Part shown: positions 7 through 42,808 of the stretch, one piece after another
Numbering within the stretch: position 1 is the stretch's first letter
How the letters are laid out: each line of letters opens with the position of its first letter
Source: Bacteroidia bacterium
GTDB lineage: Bacteria; Bacteroidota; Bacteroidia; Chitinophagales; Saprospiraceae
Assembly (NCBI GenBank): GCA_030430845.1
Contig: JAUIKE010000003.1
Span: forward strand, 1-64,000
Length of the DNA stretch: 64,000 nucleotides
Reading direction: 5' to 3'
Position numbers and translations under genes: made by a program
The notes under the pieces: generated by a model
What the model was told of the DNA's origin: nothing
The model's database searches: none
The model's input: only the letters and a program-made list of their open reading frames with translations

Positions 7-901
7 GTCGCAGTGCCCTTTGCGAGCACAACTTGTCCCGCTGTAACGTAGTGTAAGCGGGACACCTCTCCTACTACTCTAGACTAAAGGATAATGGTGA
101 CTATAAATGTCGCAGTGCCCTTTGCGAGCACAACTTGTCCCGCTGTAACGCAGTGTAAGCGGGACACCTCTCCTACGTGCAACCACTACCAGCGCGTAAC
201 AGATCAGTTGAGTCGCAGTGCCCTTTGCGAGCACAACTTGTCCCGCTGTAACGCAGTGCAAGCGGGACACCTCTCCTACATCAAATAAACTCGTTGAAGA
301 TTAATGTCGACCTTGTCGCAGTGCCCTTTGCGAGCACAACTTGTCCCGCTGTAACGTAGTGTAAGCGGGACACCTCTCCTACTTTTAAGAACTTTTTTAA
401 ATTAATCAGAAATGAAAGTCGCAGTGCCCTTTGCGAGCACAACTTGTCCCGCTGTAACGCAGTGCAAGCGGGACACCTCTCCTACGCATTTTTGCAATGT
501 TTAGTTTCGCAGGCGTTCACGTCGCAGTGCCCTTTGCGAGCACAACTTGTCCCGCTGTAACGCAGTGTAAGCGGGACACCTCTCCTACCGGTAGAATTGA
601 GCAACATCGGAAACCATTACGCGAATAGTCGCAGTGCCCTTTGCGAGCACAACTTGTCCCGCTGTAACGCAGTGCAAGCGGGACACCTCTCCTACCAAAA
701 ACCTGCTGCCATTATTCCGAAGGAAACAAGTCGCAGTGCCCTTTGCGAGCACAACTTGTCCCGCTGTAACGTAGTGTAAGCGGGACACCTCTCCTACATT
801 TTTGCCATGAGAATATTATTCACAGTGCTATATGTCGCAGTGCCCTTTGCGAGCACAACTTGTCCCGCTGTAACGCAGTGCAAGCGGGACACCTCTCCTA
901 C
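7..901. repeat. Nine 68-bp repeats carrying a 32-bp hairpin insert
   Basis: Each of these nine repeats equals the 36-bp repeat of the right end with 32 bp inserted after base 24, between GAGCACA and CACCTC. The insert forms a stem TGTCCCGCT/AGCGGGACA, whose last two bases come from the host repeat, and a 13-base loop. Only two loop positions vary among copies: GTAACGTAGTGTA in repeats 1, 4 and 8; GTAACGCAGTGTA in 2 and 6; GTAACGCAGTGCA in 3, 5, 7 and 9. There is no target-site duplication beyond one ambiguous base. Confidence 0.9.
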
Positions 902-936
902 GATTTGCAACTGGCGGGCGAAGCGCTGAGGAAACA

Positions 937-1184
937 GTCGCAGTGCCCTTTGCGAGCACACACCTCTCCTACAATTCTATTATGGAACAAGTATTAGGTC
1001 AAATGTCGCAGTGCCCTTTGCGAGCACACACCTCTCCTACGGGAATAATATTGTGATTAATGCTAGCTCTCATATTGTCGCAGTGCCCTTTGCGAGCACA
1101 CACCTCTCCTACGCTATCACCGTCACCGTCGAGAAGTGGTCCCAAAAAGTCGCAGTGCCCTTTGCGAGCACACACCTCTCCTAC
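937..1184. repeat. Four uninterrupted 36-bp CRISPR repeats
   Basis: Repeats at 937-972, 1005-1040, 1077-1112 and 1149-1184 are identical and lack the hairpin insert. Spacers here are 32, 36 and 36 bp. Inside the repeat, TCGCA (bases 2-6) can pair with TGCGA (15-19), and GTGC (7-10) with GCAC (20-23). The two pairings interleave. Confidence 0.9.
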
Positions 1185-1290
1185 CCTTGTTTTTTATAAT
1201 GATCTAATAATGAGGTATTTGCGAAAAACTTTAACACTTTAACTTTTACTAAAAGGCGCTTTCGGTGCCAAATTTTATTTGGTTCATAGT
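1185..1290 (-). promoter_or_regulatory. Candidate CRISPR leader or trailer flank
   Basis: This A/T-rich, gene-free sequence abuts the last repeat. Read on the minus strand, toward the array, it contains GTTAAAGTGTTAAAG and then an A/T-rich stretch ending next to the repeat. Leaders usually look like this, but so can trailer flanks. No degenerate terminal repeat is seen at this end, which weakly favours a leader. Polarity is an inference only. Confidence 0.3.
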
Positions 1291-18821: not shown

Positions 18822-18856
18822 TTAAGGCATTGGCCGCTGCGCGGCCAATGCCTTAA
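18822..18856. terminator. Hairpin after susD-like gene
   Basis: Sixteen-bp perfect stem TTAAGGCATTGGCCGC with a TGC loop, directly after the susD-like stop. No T-run follows, so it may stabilise the 3' end rather than terminate alone. Confidence 0.6.
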
Positions 18857-42718: not shown

Positions 42719-42808
42719 GACACTGGGGATGCTGTTTTAGTGGTAACAGTGTCCCTAGTGTCAAAAACAATCAGTGTCTGCCTGCCTTCGCAAAGCTACG
42801 GCAGGCAG
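42719..42808. terminator. Two hairpins between convergent genes
   Basis: GACACTGGGGA (42719-42729) pairs with TCCCTAGTGTC (42752-42762) with one G-T pair. CTGCCTGCC (42778-42786) pairs with GGCAGGCAG (42800-42808). They separate the permease and sulfatase genes; T-runs are weak. Confidence 0.6.

Follow-up and report, generated by a model that had tools for sequence, protein, structure and literature searches.

A CRISPR array with hairpin-interrupted 68-bp repeats beside plain 36-bp repeats in a Saprospiraceae genome

Results

Organization of the array

This study examined a CRISPR array in a 64,000-nt stretch of DNA, hereafter the window, which forms the left end of contig C117 (107,620 bp) in a 9.1-Mb Saprospiraceae genome comprising 396 contigs. 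The window opens inside the array, which is cut by the contig end, and nine long repeats are followed by four plain repeats and a leader (Table 1). The 24 left and 12 right bases of the repeat were invariant across 13 of 13 window repeats, and the 68-mer is the 36-mer with 32 nt placed after nucleotide 12 in the transcribed orientation (repeat start+24 to start+55 in window forward coordinates). In the presumed transcribed orientation, the plain repeat reads GTAGGAGAGGTG^TGTGCTCGCAAAGGGCACTGCGAC, with the insert TCCCGCTTRCACTRCGTTACAGCGGGACAAGT located at ^. The spacers measured 32-39 bp, were all unique, and were equal in length in the long-repeat and plain-repeat blocks. The repeats are direct and nearly identical, and the spacers between them are unique and similar in length, which identifies the locus as a CRISPR array; the original prediction that nine repeats carry 32 bp at one site, that the last four are plain, and that a clean boundary separates the two blocks was confirmed. 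Because the insert occupies exactly one site in nine of the nine older window repeats, chance is not a concern.

No convincing spacer match was found in phages or plasmids or by seven exact-pattern spacer scans of viral contigs, and an Rfam scan of the window returned no match. The window also contains a perfect palindrome with 16-bp arms (TTAAGGCATTGGCCGC...) and a REP-like palindrome, CTGCCTGCCTTCGCAAAGCTACGGCAGGCAG (coordinates 18822-18856 and 42778-42808).

Table 1. Positions of the array components and of two genes of the adjoining operon
Feature	Record	Position	Strand	Remarks
CRISPR array, window part	Window	7-1184	- (presumed transcription)	Nine long 68-bp and four plain 36-bp repeats
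Older block, nine 68-bp repeats with unique spacers	Window	7-901	-	7-74, 109-176, 212-279, 315-382, 418-485, 521-588, 628-695, 730-797, 834-901
Nine 32-nt hairpin inserts	Window	31-62, 133-164, 236-267, 339-370, 442-473, 545-576, 652-683, 754-785, 858-889	-	
Spacer between long and plain repeats, clean boundary	Window	902-936	-	
Four plain 36-bp repeats, newest, leader-proximal	Window	937-1184	-	937-972, 1005-1040, 1077-1112, 1149-1184
Leader	Window	1185-1284	-	91/100 identical to the leader of array 2, contig C186 (L039 11822-11921)
DEDDh	L039	967-1521		
CorA	L039	1514-3124		

The hairpin insert and its loop haplotypes

The insert consists of a 27-nt hairpin with a 9-bp stem (TGTCCCGCT/AGCGGGACA) and a 5-nt tail, and it behaves as the palindromic unit that had been predicted. 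The nine window copies of the insert were not identical and exhibited C/T variation at two loop positions, giving three haplotypes. Read from the leader (window 34-64 and the other eight inserts), the loops were CC TT CC CT CC TT CC CT TT, and the series continued on contig C186 (L039 20-457) with CT TT TT TT. The CC-form loop contains GCACTGCG, which is also present in the tail of the repeat itself, GGGCACTGCGAC.

All eight adjacent pairs of long repeats in the window differed in loop haplotype (shuffle P 0.06). Strict leader-proximal copying would require approximately 12 substitutions, all at 2 of the 68 positions, with the remaining 66 unchanged. The original idea of plain vertical copying from a single inserted repeat cannot yield alternating haplotypes and was rejected; the pattern requires some contribution from repeat-to-repeat exchange, from insertion on several occasions, or from a mixture of strains. 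Sequencing errors caused by base modification are an unlikely source of the alternation, the loop motif GCACTGC being present also in the repeat body and invariant there in the window.

We searched the same genome for the insert, allowing up to three mismatches or requiring exact arms, and found it in the array only. With zero copies outside the array, the window insert is not a high-copy dispersed palindrome of the kind that defines REP elements. Y1_Tnp genes numbered five in this genome and one in the Lewinella genome described below (G024). The three Y1_Tnp (Y1/REP-type transposase) genes examined gave no support for a RAYT origin, the palindromes near them being different from the insert. 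Neither strand has a T-run after the hairpin, and a role as an intrinsic terminator, which had been among the functions proposed for it, is therefore unlikely.

The remainder of the array and the cas operon

The long-array repeat was found on only two contigs of the genome, C117 and C186 (12,380 bp), and because no other contigs bear it, we infer that the two are joined into one array. C186 opens with five further long repeats, followed by two decayed terminal copies with decayed inserts. The array consequently holds at least 14 long repeats (nine in the window and at least five on C186) and, as had been proposed, the CRISPR system has accumulated many spacers between 68-bp repeats. The oldest decayed repeats (L039 530-660, C186) hold a second, different palindrome, AAGGCGGAGCTGCTGCTCCGCC, whose family has a few other copies in the genome.

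The fragmentation of the genome, the break of both contigs inside the array, and the alternation of the loops are compatible with an assembly artefact, in which several strains merged in one metagenome-assembled contig would explain the border between long and plain repeats or the alternating loops. We consider this very improbable, because every insert has a unique spacer of its own beside it, well inside the length of a read, because the second contig adds another five long repeats, and because a same-site insert occurs in an independent genome.

A search for cas genes beside the array had been proposed, and a type III-B operon adjoins its other end on C186, across the putative contig join. 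The block comprises ten genes in the order DEDDh nuclease, CorA, an unassigned protein, Cmr1, Cas10, Cmr3, Cmr4, Cmr5, Cmr6, and Cas6b. It includes cas10/cmr2 together with cmr1 and cmr3-6, the gene set of type III-B, and the complete operon lies between the two arrays. By gene content, the neighboring DEDDh and CorA pair corresponds to a CorA-type III (SAM-AMP) system, in which corA lies beside an nrn, DEDD, or SAM-AMP lyase gene, an association that has been described previously (PMC10600005). The 237-aa protein encoded between CorA and Cmr1 (L039 3058-3771) matched nothing in Pfam or PADLOC; its N-terminal part appears to span the membrane, and G024 has an open reading frame at a similar position (L124 4144-4719). 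Array 2, at the far end of the cas block, has a plain 36-bp repeat, GTAGGAGTCATGGGTGCTCGCAAAGGGCACTGCGAC.

The cas1 gene was not found in the type III-B block. Another contig, C181, carries two copies with open frames of 337 and 326 aa, and adaptation would therefore have to act in trans, as has been documented for another system (PMC8092290). C181 of this genome (G000) also carries the decayed terminal repeats of two other arrays with the 37-bp repeat GTCAGAG...GGATTAAGAC (L108 13738-13900 and 16290-16400); these repeats are flanked or cut by palindromes, which include the GCGGAGCTGCAGCTCCGC family.

Survey of relatives and direction of the array

A Cmr4-family search covered 398 Saprospiraceae genomes, and a Cas10 search covered 299 genomes of the order. 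We fetched 83 loci around Cas10/Cmr4-family matches and cas1, including those of the two focal genomes (the present one and G024), and obtained 58 arrays with repeats of 23-45 bp. Intact repeats with such an insert were found in just the two focal genomes among these loci and arrays; the arrays of the relatives had plain repeats, mostly of 35-38 bp. The other odd spacings in the 58 arrays reflected array ends or repeats that were truncated or had been skipped, and no comparable insert lay between intact flanks; the long-array repeat was not found in a genome of the same genus (G001). Palindromes at decayed terminal repeats recur on C181 and in the loci L100 and L195. In an unrelated array (CTTTAAATCATTGTCCAAATAAGGTTGGATTGAAAC, L235 18459-18842), two similar stretches of approximately 130-145 bp follow terminal repeats, replacing spacers.

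The 100 bp to the right of the window array and the 100 bp upstream of array 2 aligned with 91% identity and a score of 155 (best of 200 shuffles, 27), and both leaders abut the GTAGG end of the repeat. The window array thus has a leader beside it and, given the putative join, a cas operon near its other part. Because of this leader homology and the decay at the opposite end of the array, we placed the leader on the right, which makes the four plain repeats the most recent additions and the hairpin form the older one. A length of 36 bp is probably ancestral in the family, since the repeats of relatives are mostly of similar length (35-38 bp). The array therefore went through a long-repeat phase and then returned to the plain repeat at its leader. 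The original prediction had offered amplification of the insert or, if the leader was on the right, its loss. The leader is indeed on the right and the plain repeats are the newest, but precise loss is not the sole route to them. Simple loss by slippage was rejected, because a deletion between the TGT repeats would leave 34 bp and skipping of the whole hairpin would leave 37 bp, whereas 36 bp was observed; the plain repeats are thus at least as likely to stem from an exchange with some plain strain or array as from precise excision.

Same-site inserts in a Lewinella genome

A search with the 3' part of the repeat identified a Lewinella genome of another genus (G024, record CALMYQ010000263.1), the operon of which has the same gene order (DEDDh, CorA, Cmr1, Cas10, Cmr3-6, Cas6b) with protein identities of 29-50%. 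Its plain repeats are GTCGAAGTCATG^TGTGCTGAAGAAGAGCACTGCGAC and GTCGAAGTCATG^TGTGCCGGTGAAGGGCACTGCGAC, and four arrays carry inserts at the same repeat site as the window array. These four arrays belong to one Lewinella type III-B system (L124 1-2300, L155 1-800, L091 5280-8330). The inserts are 32 nt long (TCCACCTACGCC-GAT or TGT-GGCTACGGCGGATAAAT) or 104 nt long with similar ends. In array B' (L124 702-1254), the repeats read from the leader are plain, long, plain, plain, long, plain, long. Long repeats account for 6 of the 59 overall, and the terminal repeat is long in four of the four arrays; the probability of this by chance is approximately 3e-5 assuming position independence, though two terminal ends share downstream sequence. 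This common sequence suggests that an array was duplicated.

The palindrome family of the G024 inserts is also dispersed outside CRISPR in that genome, and the G024 palindrome is therefore REP-like. The search for the insert outside CRISPR, which had been proposed as a check, thus gave a divided answer, with no other copy in the insert's own genome but, in another genus, a related palindrome occupying the same site of the repeat. The window insert and the 32-nt G024 insert are alike in site, length, and pairing register (positions summing to 28), and flanking pairs T-A and G-C or G-T are common to both, whereas the stem sequences differ. In sequence, the window insert resembles the G024 and REP palindromes weakly (P about 0.005-0.12 in hairpin-preserving shuffles). 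This resemblance is only suggestive, and the data would fit either descent from a shared ancestral insert or separate insertions of related palindromes.

These likenesses, which persist despite different stem sequences, raise the possibility of a two-form repeat in which the hairpin is kept for a function (e.g., protein-binding, RNA-stabilizing, or a mark of the terminal end) and has been inherited from a common ancestor of both loci. The same gene order at the two loci and the presence of the insert in the terminal repeats of all four G024 arrays would agree with such a role. We nevertheless regard it as distinctly improbable: the hairpin is absent from the other surveyed type III-B arrays, from array 2, and from the newest repeats of its own array; 104-nt versions exist too; the T-run that termination would need is lacking; and the sequence homology between the window and G024 inserts is only suggestive.

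The same data bear on whether an array first assembled from plain repeats later received a site-specific palindrome, either singly in each older repeat or by gene conversion between repeats, the four newest repeats being too young to have received it. Long and plain repeats interleave in G024, which simple copying does not give; the loop haplotypes of the window array are not blocky; one site is used in two genera; the oldest terminal repeats are enriched for inserts (4/4 G024 arrays); and precise excision becomes unnecessary. However, the block is sharp, with the insert in 14 of the 14 older repeats seen and in none of the four newest, and neither a donor copy elsewhere in the genome nor a matching transposase was found. 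We regard independent insertion as rather unlikely.

Discussion

The array described here is genuine and its type is known; its repeat is unusual, and the insert recurs at one site in two genera. The system resembles the Bacteroides fragilis-like type III-B (Cmr) system with CorA and a DEDD/NrN phosphodiesterase that signals through SAM-AMP (PMC10600005), sharing cmr1, cas10, cmr3-6, cas6, corA, a gene for a DEDD-family nuclease, and a plain repeat length of 36. This likeness is one of gene content and plain repeat length, and the window array differs by its 68-bp repeats with an inserted hairpin. Similar to REP and REPIN elements (PMC3733652, PMC8266576), the insert is a short GC-rich imperfect palindrome, and the G024 family occurs outside CRISPR as well; in contrast to them, the window-genome insert is confined to one fixed site in CRISPR repeats, and no RAYT linkage was found near the genes examined. 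Foreign DNA has been reported in CRISPR loci, namely IS elements in cas genes (PMC10359306) and a prophage in a terminal repeat of Streptococcus pyogenes (PMC3089615), the latter sharing the terminal position with inserts observed here. Unlike those cases, the window-array insert is only 32 nt long, leaves the repeat usable, and occupies at least 14 repeats of one array. No description of hairpin-inserted CRISPR repeats was found in the literature searched, most subscription journals lying outside that search.

Our best explanation, which we hold with about even confidence, is that a REP-like palindrome entered a fixed hotspot in the repeat family and that the long repeat was then copied with approximately 13 spacers of normal length. 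The alternation of adjacent loop haplotypes is the main reason for not placing it higher; the interleaving of long and plain repeats in G024, the lack of insert copies outside the window array, the weak resemblance to the G024 and REP palindromes, the absence of cas1 from the locus, and the unlike palindromes near the examined transposase genes also weigh against it. Under this amplification account, palindromes would enter the repeat family at a hotspot after nucleotide 12, just 5' of the stem-loop expected for Cas6. An inserted repeat may have become leader-proximal, for example after collapse of the array to its terminal repeat, and would have been duplicated across approximately 13 spacer acquisitions, until a plain repeat replaced the leader-proximal long one, possibly through exchange with another array or strain.

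In RNA folding, the long repeat formed the insert hairpin and, after it, the same 6-bp stem-loop as the plain repeat, without change (-27.0 versus -10.0 kcal/mol). Because this stem-loop is still predicted to form, processing of the long repeat by Cas6b is probably kept. The preceding crRNA would then carry the hairpin on its 3' side, the side that is trimmed in the B. fragilis Cmr system (PMC10600005). The extra 32 bp may be tolerated during adaptation because the insert lies upstream of the 3' portion of the repeat, which defines where the second integration occurs in the systems that have been studied. In one such system, of type II-A, a ruler near the repeat 3' end fixes the second cut, and changes in upstream length are tolerated (PMC6895254). 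Alternatively or in addition, a 31-nt hairpin may fold out, leaving 37 nt, which is near normal. A more far-reaching reading, which we consider unlikely, is that of a minimal mobile hairpin parasitizing CRISPR repeats, which would enter at a fixed site, perhaps while the repeat strands are single-stranded at spacer acquisition, and be multiplied by adaptation machinery that leaves the folded-out hairpin uncounted when measuring the repeat.

A molecular ruler in the adaptation complex is thought to keep the length of CRISPR repeats. A natural array in which 68-bp repeats have apparently been duplicated many times with normal spacers can be used to ask whether that ruler counts from one end or sees a folded-out hairpin. 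Array-detection programs with an upper limit on repeat length will easily overlook such hairpin-bearing repeats. That another genus has inserts at the same site suggests that tiny palindromic elements can use CRISPR repeats as a landing site; such hairpins appear to settle in these repeats and can be carried along, which offers a probe of how precisely repeats must be measured.
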